Source: Promethearchaeota archaeon (GTDB taxonomy: Archaea; Asgardarchaeota; Lokiarchaeia; Sigyniarchaeales; SOKP01). From it: a stretch of DNA of 47,080 nucleotides. The notes under the pieces were generated by a model. It had not been told where the DNA came from. It did no database searches and saw nothing but the letters and a program-made list of their open reading frames with translations. The stretch covers positions 1 to 47,080 of the forward strand of contig JAGXNP010000003.1 in NCBI GenBank assembly GCA_019894885.1, read 5' to 3'. This document shows, in pieces, positions 22,416-42,408 of the stretch (positions are counted from its first letter, which is position 1; each line of letters begins with the position of its first letter). Position numbers and translations under genes: made by a program.

Positions 22416-22979
22416 ATGGAAATTAAAACTCCAAAAATTGATTTAACATTTAAAATGTGTATATTTGGAGATTCACATGTTGGTAAATCAACATTGATCA
22501 ACCGATATATTACTGCTAAATTTGATCATGACCTCAAGTCGACTTTAGGAGCGGCAATTTTGATGAAATTCATAGAAACGGAAACTACGAGAATAACACT
22601 TCAAATTTGGGATTTTGGTGGAGAAAATAGGTTTACTTCTCTTTTACCTAGCTATGCTCAAGGATCATCTGCAGCAATTTTTATGTGCGACATTTCTAAT
22701 CATGATAGCATTACGAATATAGATAAATGGTTCTTGAAATTTAACGAAGGACTGAACAATCGGGATCCAAAATTTCCTCTAATTATAGTTGGTGGAAAGT
22801 TGGACTTAGAAGAACAGCGATCTTTTAATAAAAAAGATATTGAAACTATCTTTACAGTACGAAAAGAATTTGATTACCTCGAATGCTCTTCAAAAACCGG
22901 AGAAAATGTAAATTTGCTTTTTAAAACTATTGTCGATAAAGTGTTGATTTATAGAAAGATTAAGCCATCTATAAGATAA
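22416..22979 (+). CDS. Ras-superfamily small GTPase (Asgard type)
   Basis: A 187-residue small GTPase. G1 is GDSHVGKST (18-26), the switch I Thr is in STLGAA (43), G3 is WDFGGE (65-70), G4 is GGKLD (126-130) and G5 is CSSKTG (157-162). The position of Ras Gln61 is Glu70, and the G4 Asn is Gly126, so nucleotide affinity and hydrolysis may differ from eukaryotic Ras. There is no C-terminal prenylation Cys. Such GTPases are numerous in Asgard archaea and are presumed switches for membrane or cytoskeletal processes. It is probably monocistronic; a histidine-phosphatase-like gene follows 69 bases later. Confidence 0.92.
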   Translation: MEIKTPKIDLTFKMCIFGDSHVGKSTLINRYITAKFDHDLKSTLGAAILMKFIETETTRITLQIWDFGGENRFTSLLPSYAQGSSAAIFMCDISNHDSITNIDKWFLKFNEGLNNRDPKFPLIIVGGKLDLEEQRSFNKKDIETIFTVRKEFDYLECSSKTGENVNLLFKTIVDKVLIYRKIKPSIR

Positions 22980-26168: not shown

Positions 26169-26714
26169 ATGGCGAATCTGAACGATCTAACCGTTCCTTT
26201 ATTGGATCAATTAGCAAAAGAAATTGGAATCAAACTTAACAAAAAAGATAAGAAGCCAGATAAAATTTCTAAAATAAGAAGCGTTGGTCTTGAAGAACTA
26301 CAACTTAACCAATTAATACAAAAATATTACGACCAGAAATCTACCCCTAAAAAGACACGGAAAGATACGATTTCAGAGATAAAGGGTAGAGTTAAACTAC
26401 TTGAAGAACAAGTCAAATTTTTGATGTCAGAAATAAATGTATCTAAAATTTCTGTAATGAAAGAAGGAAACGACGATCTCTTAACCGTTACAACCGATTT
26501 AGCTGAAATCAAGAAATTTATTAAATCTCTTGTATCTCCGGGAGAACTTATTACGATTGATGAGTTAATTGAAATAAATGAAATTCAAAAAATACCTTTG
26601 ATTACTCTAAAGCATTCAATTTACGATCTAATTGACGAAAATGTGTTTGGTGTTGCGGAAGGCAACTCAAGGCAAAAAATTGGGGGAAAAATCGGAGTTT
26701 TGGTAAGAAAGTAA
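26169..26714 (+). CDS. SAP-like/coiled-coil/winged-helix protein, unknown function
   Basis: A 181-residue protein. The N-terminal 60 residues (TVPLLDQLAKEIGIKLN) look like a short helical SAP-like unit, residues 62-90 form a coiled coil (TISEIKGRVKLLEEQVKFLM), and the last 70 residues resemble a small winged-helix or PCI-type domain (GELITIDELIEINEIQKIP to ENVFGVAEG). No named family is recognised. It sits alone upstream of the sulfur-transfer region. A DNA- or protein-binding role is possible. Confidence 0.7.
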   Translation: MANLNDLTVPLLDQLAKEIGIKLNKKDKKPDKISKIRSVGLEELQLNQLIQKYYDQKSTPKKTRKDTISEIKGRVKLLEEQVKFLMSEINVSKISVMKEGNDDLLTVTTDLAEIKKFIKSLVSPGELITIDELIEINEIQKIPLITLKHSIYDLIDENVFGVAEGNSRQKIGGKIGVLVRK

Positions 26715-26859
26715 TTAAAATATTAAGATCAGATTTGATTAAATGGATATCCTTTTTTTTTATCTCTGACCTATTTCAGATAATAGTGTAAAAATGGCAG
26801 TCTTTTTTTTATAATCAAAAACAATTTCACTATTAGATAATTTTTTTATATGAATACAA

Positions 26860-27669
26860 ATGGATTTATCGGACGAACAAATTAATAGGTATTCACGGCA
26901 GATTGTGCTAAAGGAAGTTGGTGGAATAGGCCAAAACAAGTTGCTAGATTCCAAAATTTCATTAATAGGATTAGGAGCTCTCGGATCCTCTGCTGCTTAC
27001 TATTTAGCTGCTGCTGGCGTCGGAACATTACAGATAATTGATTTTGATACCGTTGAATTATCAAATTTACATAGACAAATCCTTCATTTTACGAAGGATA
27101 TTAACAGTAAAAAAACTAGTAGTGCTGCAGATAAGCTAAACTCGTTGAATCCAGATTGTACTATTGAAATTGTTAACGATCACATTACTCCTAAAAATTC
27201 TAAAGCTTTACTTAAGGATTCGAACTTCGTTATTGAAGGTTCTGATAACATTCAAACTAAAATGCTCATAAACGATACATGTATTAGTTTAAAAATTCCT
27301 TTCACGATTGCGGGTGTATTGAGGTTCCACGGTCAAATTATGACTGTTGTTCCAGAAAAAAAGACATCATGTTATCGGTGCGTGTTCGGTGATATCACCG
27401 AGGTGGATTCAAGTATGTCGTGTTCTCAAGCGGGAGTAATTGGTTTCGTTCCTGGAGTTTTAGGTTGCCTAGAAGCCAATGAAGCGCTGAAATATATACT
27501 AAATATAGGTGATTTATTAACAAACAAAATAATGTATGTGGATCTTTTAAGAAACAGTTTTAATTTTATTGAAATACACAGAGATAATAAATGTATCGCA
27601 TGTGGGGACAACGCTAAGGATTTAGTTGAAGAAGCAAATTATGGGGGTTTAGATGCTTGCGATGAGTAG
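26860..27669 (+). CDS. E1-like activating enzyme, ThiF/MoeB/HesA family
   Basis: A 269-residue adenylating enzyme of the E1 superfamily. Residues 37-42 (GLGALG) form the nucleotide loop, DFDTVELSNLHRQ holds the acidic and Arg residues for ATP, and the zinc pairs are CYRC (171-174) and CIAC (245-248). Cys188, in SMSCSQAGV, lies where ThiF has its catalytic cysteine. It would adenylate the C-terminal Gly-Gly of a sulfur carrier, and the MoaD-like gene 29020-29307 encodes such a carrier. No rhodanese domain is attached. The 3-prime end overlaps the TusA gene by 17 bases, so they form one operon with the PP-loop gene. Confidence 0.93.
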   Translation: MDLSDEQINRYSRQIVLKEVGGIGQNKLLDSKISLIGLGALGSSAAYYLAAAGVGTLQIIDFDTVELSNLHRQILHFTKDINSKKTSSAADKLNSLNPDCTIEIVNDHITPKNSKALLKDSNFVIEGSDNIQTKMLINDTCISLKIPFTIAGVLRFHGQIMTVVPEKKTSCYRCVFGDITEVDSSMSCSQAGVIGFVPGVLGCLEANEALKYILNIGDLLTNKIMYVDLLRNSFNFIEIHRDNKCIACGDNAKDLVEEANYGGLDACDE

Positions 27670-27925
27670 TATAGATAAACCAAGCTATAAAGAAAGCACT
27701 CAATTAGATATTCGAGGTAAAGTCTGTCCATTAACATTTGTTTACACTAAATTAGCATTAGAGGAACTAGAGACGGGTAGGATTCTAGAGGTATTTTTAG
27801 ATTTTCCTGCAGCTCTTAAGAATATTCCCGAAAGTTGTAGAAGACAAAATATTGCTGAATTATTAGAAATAAAGAAACACCATTCTGATAAACCGGAATG
27901 GATAATGATATTGAAAAAACTATAA
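27653..27925 (+). CDS. TusA/SirA-family sulfur carrier
   Basis: A 90-residue TusA-like protein with the persulfide-accepting cysteine at residue 25 in LDIRGKVCPLTFVYTKLAL; the canonical CPxP motif is CPLT here. TusA proteins take sulfane sulfur from a cysteine desulfurase or rhodanese and pass it to DsrE-type acceptors or biosynthetic enzymes. The start ATG 27653 overlaps the E1 gene; ATG 27662 is an alternative. The PP-loop gene begins directly after its stop codon, so all three are translationally linked. Confidence 0.9.
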   Translation: MLAMSSIDKPSYKESTQLDIRGKVCPLTFVYTKLALEELETGRILEVFLDFPAALKNIPESCRRQNIAELLEIKKHHSDKPEWIMILKKL

Positions 27926-28963
27926 ATGTCGGTGAGCTATTTCCTGAACGATATTACTAATGAGACCCCTATAGGTTTAGGTTTAATTTCTGGTGGTTTA
28001 GATAGTTTAATTGCATGTTTGGTTTTAAAATTACAGGGTATTAAAGTCGTTGCATTGAATTTCAAATCTCCATTTTGCATCTGTGATAAGGCCTATAAAA
28101 ATGTAGAATGCGGCTTAAATCTCTATTCCGATAAATTGGATATAAAAACTTATCATCTTCAGAAAGAAGACGATTATTTAGATGTAATTCAAAATCCTAA
28201 ATTTGGCTATGGTAAAAATTTGAATCCATGTATAGATTGTAGAATATACATTTTAAAGAAGGCAAAATTATTCGCTGAGAAAATTAATGCTGATTTTATT
28301 TTTACCGGTGAAGTCTTAGATCAGAGACCTAAGTCTCAGAATCTTAAAGCGTTAAGAATAATCGAGGAAGAATCAAATCTTAAAGGAAAATTGCTTAGAC
28401 CTTTATCTGCTTTAATGCTAAAACCAACTATTTTGGAACGAGAAGGATTAATTGATAGATCTAGGCTACTCGGGATTAAAGGGAGGAGTAGAAAAAAGCA
28501 ATTAGAACTCGCGAGAGCTCATGGTCTTTTGAACGAATATAACGCGTGTGGAGGATGTCTCCTTACAGAAAAAGAATTTGCTAATAGAATGAAAGACTAT
28601 CTTAAATTTAGCAAAAATCCTACCATGGAAGGGGTAACACTTCTAAAGTATGGCAGACACTTCAGATTTAATGGAGCTAAAATTATCATTGGGAGAAATG
28701 AATTAGAAAACGATTTTTTACTCCAACTAAAGGGATCGGATGGACTTATAATGGAAGCTTCCGATGTAAAGGGCCCGATAACCCTTATTCAGGGTAATGT
28801 TGAAGAGGCTGTAATTAAATTTGCTGCGAGATTGACATTAAGATATTCAGATGCTATAAAATCCCGGGGAGAAGTTATATATGGTAGAGATTCTAGCATC
28901 CTCAATGAATATTTATTAGTAGAAAAAGCAACTCAAGAATCATTAAAACCCTATCTTCTATAG
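27926..28963 (+). CDS. PP-loop ATPase (thiolation-type) with NFACT-R-like C-terminal domain
   Basis: A 345-residue protein. SGGLDS (residues 22-27) is the ATP pyrophosphatase loop; CIC, NPCIDCR and NACGGCLLT supply three cysteine groups, suggesting zinc or an Fe-S cluster. The layout is that of MnmA/ThiI-like sulfurtransferases, which adenylate a tRNA base or other substrate. The last 100 residues (RFNGAKIIIGRNELENDFLL to EVIYG) resemble the NFACT-R RNA-binding domain. Start ATG immediately follows the TusA stop codon. A tRNA thiolation role with the nearby E1, Ubl and TusA is the best inference; a cofactor-thiolation role is equally possible. Confidence 0.87.
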   Translation: MSVSYFLNDITNETPIGLGLISGGLDSLIACLVLKLQGIKVVALNFKSPFCICDKAYKNVECGLNLYSDKLDIKTYHLQKEDDYLDVIQNPKFGYGKNLNPCIDCRIYILKKAKLFAEKINADFIFTGEVLDQRPKSQNLKALRIIEEESNLKGKLLRPLSALMLKPTILEREGLIDRSRLLGIKGRSRKKQLELARAHGLLNEYNACGGCLLTEKEFANRMKDYLKFSKNPTMEGVTLLKYGRHFRFNGAKIIIGRNELENDFLLQLKGSDGLIMEASDVKGPITLIQGNVEEAVIKFAARLTLRYSDAIKSRGEVIYGRDSSILNEYLLVEKATQESLKPYLL

Positions 28964-29019
28964 TTCAATACTTATCGTAGTGTAATATAAAAATACATAG
29001 GAGTTTGACTAAATTCTCT

Positions 29020-29307
29020 TTATCCTCCAGCTATTGCCGGCATTAGAAGAATTTCATCGTGATGGTTGACAATTGTATCTAAATTTTCAAGTGTACGTAT
29101 ATCTTTACCATTTAAACCTAAAATTATGTATCTACTTAAAGAATTCGGAGAATCTAATATCTTATTTTCAAAATTCTCTCCAAATTTAGAGATAAGTCTT
29201 CCTAGAATCTCCTTAATTGTAGCGTTATCTTGAACTGATATATTTAATTCTTTAATTTTAGTAATATCCGCTAATAACGATAAGAAATTTATTTTTATGT
29301 CAATCAT
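29020..29307 (-). CDS. MoaD/ThiS-family ubiquitin-like sulfur carrier
   Basis: A 95-residue beta-grasp protein ending in Gly-Gly, with the family pattern VDIKINFLSLLADIT at strand 1 replaced by IDIKINF, a central DNATIKEILGRLISKFG helix and HHDEILLMPAIAGG as the last strand and tail. The Gly-Gly C-terminus is adenylated by an E1 and can be converted to a thiocarboxylate or conjugated to lysine. It lies on the opposite strand from the E1 gene at 26860, convergent with the PP-loop gene. It may serve MoCo/tungsten cofactor, tRNA thiolation or protein conjugation. Confidence 0.92.
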   Translation of the reverse strand: MIDIKINFLSLLADITKIKELNISVQDNATIKEILGRLISKFGENFENKILDSPNSLSRYIILGLNGKDIRTLENLDTIVNHHDEILLMPAIAGG

Positions 29308-29439
29308 TTGGATAATGTTAGGTTTTTTTATAATATCAATATTATATCCATTAACAAAAAAAAATTAAAAGAAATTAACTATTTTGGTTATAATTTGAAA
29401 ATATAATGTTCTTAGTGCAATTTAATATTAATCAGATCG

Positions 29440-30387
29440 GTGCTTTTAATTAGGAAAAATAAATTAAGGATTGGGCATCTCTCTACAGCTTACCATGCGA
29501 ATTTCGTATTAATGGGGAATAAGGACCTAAATCATGAATTTAATAAGGATATTCGATGGAAAATGTTTGGTACTGGTCCATCGATGGTTAAGGCTTTTCA
29601 AGACAATAAGTTAGATATTGGCTATATGGGATTGCCTCCTGCTATTATAGGGATAGATAATGAAGTTCCGATTAAATGTGTAGCTGGTGGTCATGTAGAA
29701 GGGACTATCTTAGTTGCTAATAAAGCATATAAATCAATGGCTCAACTTAATAACAACCTCTCTGATGTATTATCTCAGTTTAAGGGCTGTGCCATTGGAG
29801 TTCCAAGTAAAGGATCGATCCATGAAGTAATCCTTAATTTTTATCTAAAAAAATATAGTCTAGTAGAAGATATCGAAGTAAAACATTATAAACAGGCAGA
29901 ATTTATAGCTACAGACATGCAAAAGGAAATTTTGGGAGGAGGTGTTGGTACTCCCGCTTTAGCAGTTTTTTCTTCAACCATTTTTGATTCCCATCTAATA
30001 ATCCCCCCAGAATTTTTATGGAAGGATAATCCAAGTTATGGTATATTCTTTCATGAAAGTATGATTGAAAATGAACCTGAAACAGTATTAAAATTCTTAC
30101 ATCATAATAAGGAAGCATCTTTGATACTTAGAGAAACTCCCTCAAAGGCAGCTAATATCATATCAAAAACTTTTGAAATTTTAACTGAAAGGTACGTTTC
30201 AGAAGTGTTAAAAATCTCACCAAAATATTGTATAGCTCTTTCAGAAAGATATATTAAATCTACAATGGAATTCGTGAGAACTCTCAAAGAGCTAGGTTAC
30301 ATTAAAAAAGAACTGCGAAATGACGATATTTTTGATCTTATGTTTGTACAAGAAGTGCATCCTGAACCTGAACACTATTCTAAATAA
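29440..30387 (+). CDS. SsuA/NMT1-like periplasmic-binding-fold protein without signal peptide
   Basis: A 315-residue protein of the NMT1/THI5/SsuA-like type: LRIGHLSTAYHANFVLMG, then WKMFGTGPSMVKAFQDNKLDIGYMGLPPAIIG and VPIKCVAGGHVEGTILVA are its usual first-lobe motifs. It starts within that lobe: GTG 29440 is preceded in frame by a TAG at 29413-29415 and no start in between, and no hydrophobic N-terminus exists. It is therefore probably cytoplasmic. No ABC permease or ATPase is nearby. Family precedents for cytoplasmic use of this fold are THI5, MqnA and MqnD, which are enzymes, so an enzymatic role in the sulfur-transfer region is plausible. Confidence 0.85.
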   Translation: MLLIRKNKLRIGHLSTAYHANFVLMGNKDLNHEFNKDIRWKMFGTGPSMVKAFQDNKLDIGYMGLPPAIIGIDNEVPIKCVAGGHVEGTILVANKAYKSMAQLNNNLSDVLSQFKGCAIGVPSKGSIHEVILNFYLKKYSLVEDIEVKHYKQAEFIATDMQKEILGGGVGTPALAVFSSTIFDSHLIIPPEFLWKDNPSYGIFFHESMIENEPETVLKFLHHNKEASLILRETPSKAANIISKTFEILTERYVSEVLKISPKYCIALSERYIKSTMEFVRTLKELGYIKKELRNDDIFDLMFVQEVHPEPEHYSK

Positions 30388-30407
30388 GAGACACGAATAA
30401 AAAAAAA

Positions 30408-31286
30408 TTAGGTATTATTTCTTCGCCAGATTAGTAAAGAGATTAAGCCAATGGAGACTAATAATGCTGGGTAAACAATTACTTCTAATAAAGCAGGATT
30501 AGCATTATATCCAAATAGCGCTTTTAGCAATGCTCCGATAATTTCTAAGAATTCTAGAGTGGCTGGATTCCCATCGGGAAAGCTTTCCGGTAAAATGTGC
30601 TTAATGTTCCAAACTTCGTTAATAATCGGGGGAATTATTCCCGCTTCGATAAATTCGTGAATTCCATAAGTAATTAATCCCGCAGCGAACAGTATTAGCA
30701 TCACATTTGTTATTTTAAAAAATACCTTTAGATTTATGGATTTTATACCATAGAAAATTAAAAATCCAATAAGAATCGAAATTGTTAACCCAATAATAGA
30801 ACCTAATATAACACTAATTTGATTTAAGGACCCTATCGATGCGGAACCTGTCGTTAGCAGAACCAATTCTATTCCTTCTCTAATTATAATTATAAATGTA
30901 GTAATCGAAATCGAGAACACTTTTTGAGTTCTAATGGAATCTTCAACCTTTCCTTCGAGATTTTCTCTCATCTTTGGGCCTTCTTTGCTAACCCATAAAA
31001 CTAAAGTTAATATAAAAATCCCTGAAACGATAAATGTTGTTCCCTCAAAAATCTCTTCAAGTATACCGGTAAATCCACCAAATGCTATTGAGAATATTAT
31101 AGCAAATACGATGCTTGCAATTGTCGCTAAAATTATTCCTAGGTATACATATTTATAATAAATCTTTTGGTTGGTCTTCCTTAAATATAATAAAATTATT
31201 ACTACGACTAAGACAGCTTCTAATCCTTCTCTTAATGCTAAAAAAATCGGGATTGGTAGATCAACTAGTGATATCTGATTTAACAT
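30408..31286 (-). CDS. FTR1-family iron permease
   Basis: A 292-residue protein with seven hydrophobic segments and two REGxE motifs: REGLE at residues 19-23 and REGIE at 136-140, the iron-binding signature of Ftr1/EfeU permeases. It probably imports iron across the cytoplasmic membrane. GGTGGTT precedes the ATG. The 352-bp divergent gap upstream contains several dyads, including TTAGGTTTATCTAA (31358-31371), similar to DtxR/IdeR boxes, so iron-dependent repression is plausible. Iron supply fits the nearby sulfur and Fe-S genes. Confidence 0.92.
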   Translation of the reverse strand: MLNQISLVDLPIPIFLALREGLEAVLVVVIILLYLRKTNQKIYYKYVYLGIILATIASIVFAIIFSIAFGGFTGILEEIFEGTTFIVSGIFILTLVLWVSKEGPKMRENLEGKVEDSIRTQKVFSISITTFIIIIREGIELVLLTTGSASIGSLNQISVILGSIIGLTISILIGFLIFYGIKSINLKVFFKITNVMLILFAAGLITYGIHEFIEAGIIPPIINEVWNIKHILPESFPDGNPATLEFLEIIGALLKALFGYNANPALLEVIVYPALLVSIGLISLLIWRRNNT

Positions 31287-31357
31287 GTTTTAACCACCAT
31301 ATAAAATATTTTAAAGTAATTTTCTATGTAAATAAAGAAAAAATAGAGATTTAAATC

Positions 31358-31371
31358 TTAGGTTTATCTAA
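31358..31371 (-). promoter_or_regulatory. DtxR/IdeR-like box upstream of FTR1
   Basis: TTAGGTTTATCTAA, with TTAG and CTAA ends in inverted order, resembles the metalloregulator consensus TTAGGTTAGCCTAA. It lies about 72 bases upstream of the FTR1 ATG. Only the ends are symmetrical, so this is a candidate rather than a clear site. Confidence 0.4.
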
Positions 31372-31442
31372 TATAAAAAAAGAAATCTCACTCGAAATAA
31401 GATTTTTCTTTTAAATCGTTAAAATTTATTAAATAAAAGTGA

Positions 31443-31484
31443 TATTTAAATATTTAAATAAAAGATAATGAAAAAATTCATTAT
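31443..31484. promoter_or_regulatory. 18-bp AT palindrome and adjacent dyad
   Basis: A perfect 18-bp AT palindrome, with half TATTTAAAT, at 31443-31460. Next to it are arms ATAATGAA (31465-31472) and TTCATTAT (31477-31484) around AAAA. Both occur by chance more easily in AT-rich DNA. Confidence 0.35.
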
Positions 31485-31545
31485 ATAAATGATTGTAGCG
31501 TTTATTTACAGCACTTAATTATTTAAATACCGATTAATAAAAATA

Positions 31546-31561
31546 ACTTTACAAGTAAAGT
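31546..31561 (+). promoter_or_regulatory. 16-bp dyad upstream of the membrane-protein gene
   Basis: Perfect 7-bp arms ACTTTAC (31546-31552) and GTAAAGT (31555-31561) with spacer AA, about 78 bases before the ATG at 31639. It is a candidate operator. Confidence 0.45.
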
Positions 31562-31638
31562 AATATCTTTATTTATTTCATTAACGAAATAAAAAACAAA
31601 AATTAACTCATAAAAACATACTTTTTGGTGGTAAATAA

Positions 31639-32472
31639 ATGAATATGACTCAATTGATCAAATGTATAATAGCAGTTGGAGTTGGTTTTTTCATGCTCCT
31701 CGTTGCGCCTATTCTGGTGCAGATTTCTCTGGAAGCTCTTTTAGGCGAACTTCTCATCATCGTAGTAACTCAACCCCAGTTTAGTAGTGGAATTACTCTA
31801 TTCTCCTTATTTTATCCTTTGTGGCGAGCTATAGGATATATAGCAGGAATTGTTCTATTAGCCATGGTCCCATCAATCTATAAAGGTAAGGAATGGACGA
31901 TGAAAGTGGAATTAACTGCTTATGCAGTACCAGCTGTTAGTGGAATGTTTATGTTTCTCCCTTATATAAGTTTCGTGGGAGGTTTCCCGATACCTATGAT
32001 AATCTCATTTGTTGGATTGCTGGGTTTTTGGAGTGTATTTTTATTTCAAAAATATGATAGTGTTCTTGAAAAAATAGTGAATATAATTACTTATACATTT
32101 ATAGGTATGCTGACTACACACGCGTTTGTTATAGGCGTTGGAGCACAAAGAATGTTACTCACACGCGCAGCGGCACCTCTTTTCGATGGTTTGGAATGGT
32201 GGATACTAACTCTATCAGGTGAGGTCAACTGGATGGCCGTTCTTATGCTCTTCGCTTCCATCCCTTTGATGGCAGAGCGTAAGAAGAATGGATGGTGGAT
32301 AGCATTAGTTGCGGCATTAACAATTGTAACGATCAATATTCCTACACAGATTATTCGAACGAGAACATTAGATTATCTGATAGGAGCGATACTTGCAGCT
32401 GGGTTACTAGCACTTCTATTGATATTTAAAGACCGCTTGATTGATGAGAACCAAACTAACTTAAGAGAGTAA
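31639..32472 (+). CDS. Polytopic membrane protein, unknown
   Basis: 277 residues with about seven to eight hydrophobic helices (near residues 10-30, 55-77, 92-110, 118-136, 150-170, 194-212, 220-238 and 248-265). No known family motif. GGTGGTAAATAA leads into the ATG, a reasonable ribosome binding site. It is divergent from FTR1 across a dyad-rich region and lies upstream of the DsrEFH genes, but a terminator-like hairpin separates it from them. It could be an iron or sulfur-compound transporter by context only. Confidence 0.72.
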   Translation: MNMTQLIKCIIAVGVGFFMLLVAPILVQISLEALLGELLIIVVTQPQFSSGITLFSLFYPLWRAIGYIAGIVLLAMVPSIYKGKEWTMKVELTAYAVPAVSGMFMFLPYISFVGGFPIPMIISFVGLLGFWSVFLFQKYDSVLEKIVNIITYTFIGMLTTHAFVIGVGAQRMLLTRAAAPLFDGLEWWILTLSGEVNWMAVLMLFASIPLMAERKKNGWWIALVAALTIVTINIPTQIIRTRTLDYLIGAILAAGLLALLLIFKDRLIDENQTNLRE

Positions 32473-32488
32473 TTTTCTCTTTTTTTTT
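32463..32488 (+). terminator. Hairpin plus T-run after the membrane-protein gene
   Basis: Arms AAGAGA (32463-32468) and TCTCTT (32476-32481), loop of seven, followed by a run of Ts. It overlaps the end of the coding sequence and separates the gene from the DsrE start at 32549. Confidence 0.5.
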
Positions 32489-32548
32489 CCTTTTTTGATG
32501 TAAATATTAGCATTAACTATTTATTTCAAAATAATTTATTTTGTTAAT

Positions 32549-32917
32549 ATGGTTATTTTTACCTTTGTAGTATGCGCTGAGCCTTATAAATTCGAAGCAC
32601 TAGACACGATGCTTAACTTAGGACAAGCAATCCTAAAGAAAGGTCATAAAATATTGGGGATTTTTTTTTATGGAAGCGGGGTGTATAGCGCAAAACGGGA
32701 AATACATATAAGTTCATCAATGAGAGATTTACCTAAACGACTCGAAAATTTTGTCAACGAGAATGATATGAACCTATCTGCTTGTAGCACATGGATGAAC
32801 TTTACTGGCTTAAAACCTGAGGAGTTAATCGAAAGAGCGTGTCAAGTAGGTTTAGGAGGATTATCAGAGTGGATGGCAGAATCAGATAGAGTAATAGTTT
32901 TTGGCCCTGGAGGATGA
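32549..32917 (+). CDS. DsrE/TusD-family sulfur relay protein
   Basis: A 122-residue DsrE-like protein. FTFVVCAEPYKFEALDTMLNLGQAILKKGHKI is the N-terminal Rossmann-like unit, and FFYGSGV the loop. Cys79 in LSACSTW lies at the position of the active-site Cys78 of E. coli TusD, which accepts persulfide from TusA. The C-terminal GGLSEWMAESDRVIVFGPGG matches the family end. Followed immediately by DsrF, with its ribosome binding site GGAGGATGA overlapping this stop codon. Confidence 0.9.
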   Translation: MVIFTFVVCAEPYKFEALDTMLNLGQAILKKGHKILGIFFYGSGVYSAKREIHISSSMRDLPKRLENFVNENDMNLSACSTWMNFTGLKPEELIERACQVGLGGLSEWMAESDRVIVFGPGG

Positions 32918-32921
32918 TAGC

Positions 32922-33290
32922 ATGGTTAAATCAGTAGTAATTTTATGTGAGGATTCTCCCATTGGTAAGAACTCAGCTGTCGAAGCGATCCGTATGGGTG
33001 CTGGAATTATGGCAGTAGGAGATCTAGATAAATGTAAGATAATCTTTATGGCTGACTCCGTCTACTTTTTATCCAAGAATTTTGACCCAGAGAAGGTCAA
33101 TAGGGACGCCCCTTCGAATATTTTTAGGATGATGGAACTTTCTGATTTAGAAGTTTACGCTCTAGATTCTGCTTTAGAAATTGCGGGCATTAACCATTCT
33201 GATTTAATAGAATTTGACAATATAAAAGTAGCAAGTATGCTAGAAATTTCAAAATTTATCTTAGAAGCAGATGTTATGTATAGGTATTGA
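32922..33290 (+). CDS. DsrF/TusC-family sulfur relay protein
   Basis: A 122-residue partner of DsrE. VVILCEDSPIGKNSAVEAIRMG is the first strand-helix unit and DKCKIIFMADSVYFLSKN the second, as in TusC/DsrF. It lacks the active-site cysteine and is a structural partner in the DsrEFH heterohexamer. ATG 32922 is preferred to the in-frame TTG 32901 because GGAGGATGA lies directly upstream and overlaps the DsrE end. Confidence 0.88.
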   Translation: MVKSVVILCEDSPIGKNSAVEAIRMGAGIMAVGDLDKCKIIFMADSVYFLSKNFDPEKVNRDAPSNIFRMMELSDLEVYALDSALEIAGINHSDLIEFDNIKVASMLEISKFILEADVMYRY

Positions 33291-33299
33291 TATGTTGAG

Positions 33300-33650
33300 G
33301 TGATAATTATAGAAAATGAGAAAGCTATTGTATATCTATATGGATTCAGTACTAGAAAACGGATGTACATAGATAATTTGTTAGGTATTTTAAGTGAACA
33401 GACTAAAAATAATATTAGTATTGCAATCGTTCTAATTCACGATGGAGTAATAGGAACATCACAAAGAGGTACAATACCACGCTTATTAGATAAATTGTTA
33501 AACCTCTCAATATCGGTATTTGCACTGTTACCTGATCTATTAGCGCGAGGAATTGAACCAAATACGGTTGATCCTAGAATTAAATGTATTGAATACGAAG
33601 ATCTTGTGGAAATTTTAGCGGAAACTCCTAAAGTCGCTTCTTGGATGTAA
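33300..33650 (+). CDS. DsrH/TusB-like sulfur relay protein
   Basis: A protein of about 115 residues. KAIVYLYGFSTRKRMYIDNLL, IAIVLIHDGVIGTSQRG and ISVFALLPDLLARGI match TusB/DsrH. GAGGTGA (33297-33303) sits too close to GTG 33300 to serve it, so a start at ATA 33309 (or ATT 33306) is possible; a TGA at 33288-33290 ends the previous gene in this frame. It completes the DsrE-F-H set. Confidence 0.8.
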   Translation: MIIIENEKAIVYLYGFSTRKRMYIDNLLGILSEQTKNNISIAIVLIHDGVIGTSQRGTIPRLLDKLLNLSISVFALLPDLLARGIEPNTVDPRIKCIEYEDLVEILAETPKVASWM

Positions 33651-41511: not shown

Positions 41512-42408
41512 ATGGGAATTAAAGATATTTTGAAACGAGTATTTACTAAAGAAAAAAAAATTGTTATTACCGGACTTGACAGCGCTGGCAAAACCACCAT
41601 GATTAGTTTTCTACAGAATGGTACCTTTATGGAACATACACCCACAATGGGTAAAGAATTATCTCAAATTGAAGTACAAGGAATTCGTATAAATGTTATG
41701 GATATGGGTGGGCAAAAAGATTTCAGAGATTTATGGATTGGAGAAGCTTCGACTGCTGAGTGTGTAATATTTATGATAGACGCAGGGGCTCGAGAAAGAT
41801 TCAACGAAGCTAAAGACGAGCTATGGAAGTTATCTTCCATTTTTAAGAAGAAACCCCTGATAGTACTAGCAAATAAATACGATCTTCAACCTATTGCCTC
41901 TATTAGTGAAATTATTGCAGCTTTGAATTTGAAAGATTTACCCTCTTTTGAAGTATTACCGATTTCATGTAAAACTGGATATGGAATTGTAAAAGCATTC
42001 ATGAAGATGTACTATAAATTAACTGGTAAGCAACTGACCCAAAAGACAAGCCTTAGAGCTATTACCATTTTTGATCAGGGAGGAATTCCTTTAACATCAT
42101 CCTCAAATAAAGATATATTACAGGGGGGATTATTTACTGCCATTCATAATTTTGTGAGGGAATCTTTTAATTCTGAACTTGATCAACTTAAAATGGGAGA
42201 ACATCTTATCCTATTCAAACGATCGAAACATCTTATGGGCTCAATAATAGTTAATGATAATGATAATGTTGATATCAAAGAAGCAGAGTCAGGATTAAAT
42301 GATTTATTACTCCATTTAGAGCATATGTGTCCTGAGCTCGAGAAAGAACAATTAAATTATGGTAAAATCGAGTATTTAGTGGAACAATACGCTTCAAATC
42401 TGTTCTAA
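41512..42408 (+). CDS. Arf-like GTPase with C-terminal longin-like domain
   Basis: 298 residues. The N terminus MGIKDILKRVF is a short amphipathic helix with Gly2, as in Arf proteins. G1 is GLDSAGKTT (21-29), switch I Thr45 is in HTPTMG, G3 is MDMGGQ (63-68), G4 is NKYD (121-124) and G5 is SCKT (152-155), so nucleotide binding and hydrolysis residues are all present. Residues 180-298 form an extra domain (AITIFDQGGIPLT, QGGLFTAIHNFVRESF, GEHLILFKRSKHLMGSIIV) with a longin-like pattern. It lies 264 bases after the longin/membrane operon. Confidence 0.93.
   Translation: MGIKDILKRVFTKEKKIVITGLDSAGKTTMISFLQNGTFMEHTPTMGKELSQIEVQGIRINVMDMGGQKDFRDLWIGEASTAECVIFMIDAGARERFNEAKDELWKLSSIFKKKPLIVLANKYDLQPIASISEIIAALNLKDLPSFEVLPISCKTGYGIVKAFMKMYYKLTGKQLTQKTSLRAITIFDQGGIPLTSSSNKDILQGGLFTAIHNFVRESFNSELDQLKMGEHLILFKRSKHLMGSIIVNDNDNVDIKEAESGLNDLLLHLEHMCPELEKEQLNYGKIEYLVEQYASNLF

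Follow-up and report, generated by a model that had tools for sequence, protein, structure and literature searches.

We describe a five-gene cassette within a 47,080-nucleotide stretch of DNA (the window; contig JAGXNP010000003.1) from a Lokiarchaeia genome, G000, of 3.22 Mb in 279 contigs and 88.8% completeness. The cassette encodes an E1-like adenylyltransferase, a TusA-like sulfurtransferase, a PP-loop ATPase, a ubiquitin-like protein (Ubl) and a protein of the periplasmic binding protein (PBP) fold. The last of these is a cytosolic-type protein resembling SsuA, TauA and Thi5, and we refer to it as SBP (substrate-binding protein). The five genes are gained or lost as a block, and the deepest and most conserved association among them is that of the Ubl with the PBP-fold protein. 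On balance we favor the view that the cassette is a protein-thiocarboxylate sulfur carrier, in which sulfur would pass from TusA to a Ubl thiocarboxylate (Ubl-COSH) and from there to SBP as the client, for sulfur assimilation.

The cassette and its flanking backbone

Comparison with G002, a genome of the same genus, provides the clearest view of the block. Its locus (L146) aligns to the window through position 26834 and then again from 30413, and the segment without a counterpart, 26,835–30,412, is E1-TusA-PPloop-Ubl-SBP. The surrounding order g24371-cspA-g26169-FTR1-TM277-DsrE-DsrF-DsrH-GNAT-TM134-HTH-Trx is kept, with TM277 split and with a nitroreductase-like gene between g26169 and FTR1 that also precedes E1 in some cassette-bearing relatives. 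The g26169-TM277-DsrEFH arrangement without the cassette is found in G008 and G009 also, where all that is left of FTR1 is a brief match at the 3' end of the gene. G020 has neither the cassette nor FTR1 nor DsrEFH, apart from a 72-residue C-terminal remnant of SBP between g26169 and GNAT. Because of these empty sites (G002, G008 and G009) together with the remnant in G020, we conclude that the five genes of the cassette have been gained or lost together, at least one loss having occurred, and that FTR1, TM277 and DsrEFH are a flanking backbone that is present without it.

An earlier note on this DNA had placed nine of the ten genes at 26,860–33,650 under one theme. All ten are confirmed as open reading frames (ORFs), with the spacings and families it described, but the empty sites rule out a single nine-gene system, as FTR1-TM277-DsrEFH stays without the cassette (whole in G002, minus FTR1 in G008 and G009), and the presence of DsrE in 13 of the 42 genomes of the window's family that lack SBP weakens such unity further. 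What survives of that interpretation is its idea of a sulfur relay and its linking of Ubl, E1 and TusA, with the genes now divided between two modules; the pair conserved most, Ubl and SBP, had not been singled out in it. The features are as follows (ORFs are mechanical calls, with families assigned by Pfam/NCBIfam and, where stated, by other evidence).

26169..26714, + strand: left flank gene g26169, 181 aa, without a Pfam family; kept whether or not the cassette is present
26835..30412, no strand: five-gene cassette; block missing from G002, where both flanks are intact; boundaries accurate to ~25–60 bp
26860..27669, + strand: E1-like adenylyltransferase of the ThiF/MoeB/UbaA type, without a rhodanese domain
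27653..27925, + strand: TusA-like sulfurtransferase, CP[LMFY]T replacing CPxP (families and alignment)
27926..28963, + strand: PP-loop ATPase, ThiI/MnmA-like, with C-terminal NFACT-R_2; optional member
29020..29307, - strand: MoaD/ThiS/SAMP1-type Ubl with a Gly-Gly end
29440..30387, + strand: PBP-fold protein (SBP), SsuA/TauA/Thi5-like, without a signal peptide (families and fold)
30408..31286, - strand: FTR1/EfeU iron permease; resident right flank, outside the cassette (families and synteny)
31639..32472, + strand: TM277, a 277-aa membrane-type protein without a family; resident right flank (family scan and synteny)
32549..32917, + strand: DsrE/TusD, Cys79; resident right flank (families and synteny)
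32901..33290, + strand: DsrF/TusC; resident right flank (families and synteny)
33300..33650, + strand: DsrH/TusB; resident right flank (families and synteny)

The tight linkage of the first three genes is borne out, as the E1 and TusA genes share 17 bp and the PP-loop gene starts directly at the end of TusA with zero gap. The E1 (269 aa) has ThiF as its sole Pfam family above cut-off and hence no rhodanese domain; it carries GLGALG, SNLHRQ, the CYRC/CIAC pairs and MSCS, in line with the nucleotide loop, zinc pairs and cysteine that the earlier note had read in it. A second MoeB-like E1, with ~40% identity to that of the cassette and in a separate clade, is present in nearly every family genome. 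The CP[LMFY]T motif, as against the usual CPxP, occurs in all motif-covering sequences of the cassette TusA type, the exception in the cluster being the second TusA of G070, an ordinary CPxP protein. The PP-loop protein has the motifs SGGLDS, NPCIDC and ACGGC. The Ubl stands alone and its C-terminus is AIAGG, the Gly-Gly end being terminal as had been claimed, and Cys79 of DsrE was likewise read correctly. In G115 and G108 the Ubl ends in GGSNG and not in GG (L064 9216-9491; L066 1666-1941), so that trimming, as by a JAB-like peptidase, would be needed before activation. Almost every ORF of ≥100 aa in the window was scanned against Pfam, and DsrAB, DsrC/TusE, cysteine desulfurase, MoaE, JAB and molybdopterin enzymes are all absent from the results, in agreement with the earlier note for those that it had named.

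Pairing of the Ubl with the PBP-fold protein

Among 228 Asgard genomes, many of them incomplete metagenome-assembled genomes (MAGs), SBP is found in 36, each at E < 1e-100. All 35 testable loci have a ThiS/MoaD-family gene beside SBP, the 36th being cut by a contig end. The two are immediate neighbors in 34 loci and have one intervening gene in G082. As the loci come from seven Asgard families and show three orientations (divergent, co-directional and convergent), the adjacency is not one inherited arrangement, and with about four ThiS-family genes per genome we estimate, roughly, that it would arise by chance at ~0.2% per locus. Beyond the Asgards, a search of 398 genomes from the phylum to which G117 belongs, picked via a Nitrososphaeria locus, gave one match, an exported-type SBP adjoining a permease, and tblastn against plasmids returned ordinary ABC (ATP-binding cassette) SBPs only, at no more than 25% identity. 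A clostridial TusA lead (Acetoanaerobium) turned out to be an unrelated YeeE/TusA locus.

Within the window's family (65 genomes, again many incomplete MAGs) the cassette-type E1 and the CPxT TusA occur in an identical set of 24 genomes, and the signal-less SBP is present in 23 of these and in none of the 41 others (23/0/1/41; Fisher ~1e-16, shared descent ignored). Presence of the three is patchy within and among genera. Distances co-vary for Ubl and SBP (r 0.87) and for E1 and SBP (r 0.85), with a contribution from vertical descent. Conservation of order and co-occurrence in relatives, the absence of which the earlier note had named as refuting its reading, is strong for E1-TusA-Ubl-SBP. The link is loose for DsrE (17 of the 23 SBP-bearing family genomes, against the 13 of 42 mentioned above) and for the PP-loop gene (15/23 against 7/42).

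The distribution of the PP-loop gene bears on the proposal that the Ubl acts like Urm1, SAMP2 or TtuB and that the PP-loop-NFACT-R protein thiolates tRNA, a route among the candidates of the earlier note. The gene directly adjoins TusA in the window, as in most genomes carrying both, its product has a ThiI/MnmA-like catalytic domain with Cys pairs, and archaeal links between Ubls and PP-loop proteins have been described (PMC2948915). However, it is undetected in 8 of the 23 SBP-bearing family genomes and present without the cassette-type E1 in 6, a distribution that rules out PP-loop/tRNA as the core acceptor, and tRNA thiolation leaves SBP unexplained. As an account of the cassette we regard it as improbable.

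The predicted structure of SBP (AlphaFold2, mean pLDDT 91) has a PBP fold, the nearest solved folds being TauA (Foldseek E 6e-19), Staphylococcus aureus 3un6, SsuA and the cytosolic enzyme Thi5. The protein belongs with the NMT1_2/SsuA-like families, and its score against NCBIfam SsuA_fam (74) is below the cut-off of 163.5. In an alignment of 25 sequences with identities as low as 41%, the residues Y18, H19, C80, H85, E87, H128, C264, H307, H312 and Y313 are invariant. Three of these (H85, E87 and H128) fall in the GHxEG and S-x-H motifs that a profile alignment shares with 3un6, the title of which gives it as zinc bound, and by analogy they may be metal ligands.

Given this fold and these families, SBP could be part of an ordinary ABC importer, binding an alkanesulfonate or similar compound outside the cell and lying near sulfur genes for that reason. 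Yet neither SBP nor its homologues have a signal peptide or anchor (hydropathy ≤1.2), no permease or SsuB/SsuC-type partner adjoins it at the loci examined, and its pairing with a Ubl is conserved, whereas in G025 and G103 two ABC-type SBPs with an ABC ATPase close by reach a hydropathy of 2.3–3.1 and are membrane-anchored. We therefore consider an importer very unlikely. Thi5-like synthesis of hydroxymethylpyrimidine (HMP) is ruled out, as the Cys-rich CCCFC motif carried by the Thi5/NMT1 HMP phosphate (HMP-P) synthase is absent from the SBP alignment.

Least probable of the explanations considered is molybdopterin synthesis, with the Ubl as MoaD and SBP as an unrelated stand-in for MoaE. The Ubl does resemble MoaD, one larger protein always accompanies it, and G000 (incomplete, as noted) lacks a MoaE match, but MoaE is found in 16 of the 23 SBP-bearing family genomes, with no anti-correlation, and in several genomes has its own ThiS-family neighbor (e.g. 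G082 C1:566042/566391; G025 C220). SBP as a replacement for MoaE is accordingly disfavored.

Sulfur-gene neighborhoods and a proposed relay

Neighboring genes in relatives, annotated in part only (CysE, CysK, NifS, NifU and LarE from sequence, others by Pfam), point to a role in sulfur assimilation. CysE, CysK, MetX, MetW, a Cys/Met PLP (pyridoxal phosphate) enzyme, NifS or NifU lie beside E1-TusA or Ubl-SBP in G025, G027, G029, G037, G052 and G081, and DUF169 and LarE are found around them in other genera. A cluster of ~10 kb in G082 (L065, C11, 6473-16346) holds LarE, DUF2099, PP-loop, SBP, a PALP enzyme, Ubl, DUF169, E1 and TusA, and continues with three DsrE/F/H-like genes and, beyond these, a second TusA and a radical SAM gene. 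DsrE-family genes adjoin E1-TusA independently in G082, in G070 and, with a different DsrE, in G055, G059, G061 and G064; this recurrence lends some general support to a DsrEFH link, even though the copy in the window is backbone.

These neighborhoods would also fit thiocarboxylate-dependent cysteine or homocysteine synthesis in the manner of CysO/CysM or HcyS/MetY, with Ubl-COSH donating to a PLP enzyme (CysK or a Cys/Met PLP enzyme) and SBP as an accessory or sensor. CysE, CysK, MetX, MetW or a Cys/Met PLP enzyme adjoin the relay in six genomes, and there are bacterial precedents (PMC1779556; the Wolinella pathway, as cited in PMC5764234). Such genes are near the relay in some genomes only, however, against SBP in 23 of 24 relay-bearing family genomes, and the Ubl terminates in Gly-Gly, with no JAB peptidase in the window scan. 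We think this route rather unlikely.

The relay that we favor, with SBP as client, is our reading of gene content, co-occurrence, adjacency, the empty site, the predicted fold and the invariant residues. The CPxT TusA would carry sulfur as a persulfide, its probable source being a NifS-type desulfurase encoded elsewhere in the genome, and the E1 would adenylate the C-terminal glycine of the Ubl, onto which sulfur would be moved to give Ubl-COSH. This would dock on its dedicated cytosolic PBP-fold partner, which may bind a small anionic ligand, perhaps along with a metal, and would either receive the sulfur or present the bound molecule for sulfuration; the output would enter cysteine/methionine or related sulfur assimilation. 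An optional second client (RNA thiolation) would be the PP-loop/NFACT-R protein, with DsrEFH and FTR1 as neighbors outside the core. TusA persulfides, E1 adenylation and Ubl thiocarboxylates are established in the ThiS, MoaD, HcyS and CysO systems. Because it is constantly paired with the Ubl, in parallel to ThiS-ThiG and MoaD-MoaE, SBP is the best candidate for receiver of the Ubl sulfur. More tentatively, it may itself be an enzyme that takes sulfur from the Ubl thiocarboxylate, a new type of acceptor in addition to ThiG, MoaE, CysM and MetY, with a nutrient-binding fold and a conserved His/Cys/Glu (possibly metal) site, so far Asgard-only (bacterial phyla lay outside the search); we take this as a serious possibility, short of a probable one.

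Several observations weigh against the relay with SBP as client. E1-TusA loci without SBP occur in G025, G065, G070, G074, G081, G103, G110 and G116, so that SBP is not required by every such relay, and in distant Asgards there are Ubl-SBP pairs without adjoining E1-TusA. Which Ubl the cassette E1 charges is a guess from position, because almost all genomes have further Ubls (G000 has four ThiS-family genes). Furthermore, the cassette in the window has no adjoining amino-acid sulfur genes.

Ubiquitin is presumed to descend from Ubl sulfur carriers, and among the archaea it is the Asgards that stand closest to eukaryotes. A Ubl partner that is constant at all testable Asgard loci makes the acceptor question for the extra archaeal Ubls testable with two proteins, and if that partner is the acceptor, it would add a fold not known for sulfur-acceptor chemistry.

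Other sulfur-related genes were seen in passing. G000 has a second TusA(CPxP)-DsrE-DsrF-DsrH set (L101, C161, 1303-2657), its DsrE 46% identical to that of the window, after which come a DsrE-like gene and the beginning of an HdrC-like Fe-S gene; this looks like a general Lokiarchaeal Dsr/Hdr relay. A 187-aa regulator-like protein with a Cys-rich tail and no Pfam match (L042 13787-14350 and relatives; 11 genomes), possibly a sulfur or metal sensor, adjoins SBP or PP-loop/NifU/CysK. In genus g8 (L087-L090, L092, L095) the PP-loop-NFACT-R gene lies near HdrA/HdrB/HdrC-like genes, with or without E1. The window also encodes Ras-type (22416-22979) and Arf-type (41512-42408) small GTPases, which are typical Asgard eukaryotic-signature proteins.

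Comparison with known systems

Our literature search found no description of an E1-TusA-(PP-loop)-Ubl-SBP cassette, and its parts can be set beside several known systems. TusA and TusBCD-like parts of the TusABCDE relay are present in the window, without TusE/DsrC and with DsrEFH outside the cassette; the PP-loop part of Urm1/SAMP2 tRNA thiolation is present in the window but optional; and, unlike in the MoaD/MoaE synthase, the Ubl is not paired with MoaE, which lies elsewhere. SBP shares its fold with SsuA, TauA and 3un6 (and with 3un6 the two motifs), differing in the lack of an export signal and of transporter genes, while with the Thi5/NMT1 HMP-P synthase it shares both the fold and a cytosolic location, CCCFC being the difference. 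An E1-charged Ubl as sulfur donor, proposed here, is common to HcyS/HcyF of Wolinella and CysO/MoeZ of Mycobacterium; the characterized acceptors of those pathways are PLP enzymes, whereas the constant partner in the cassette has a PBP fold.

Closest are the operons of ThiS/MoaD, a rhodanese-less E1 and SirA (TusA) with sulfur assimilation genes described by Iyer, Burroughs and Aravind in 2006 (Table 1, row 4e; PMC1779556). The stand-alone GG Ubl, the rhodanese-less E1 and TusA/SirA are common to both. For linked assimilation genes the picture is mixed: the window has no sulfate/sulfite or Cys/Met genes, and six relatives have CysE, CysK, MetX, MetW or a Cys/Met PLP enzyme nearby. The cassette differs in that no JAB is present in the window and no sulfate/sulfite reduction genes are seen, in the CPxT of its TusA, and in the addition of a constant PBP-fold partner, unlisted in row 4e. 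As it lacks JAB and has the added PBP-fold protein, we consider the Lokiarchaeal cassette a variant, rather than a member, of the ThiS/MoaD-JAB-E1-SirA operons.

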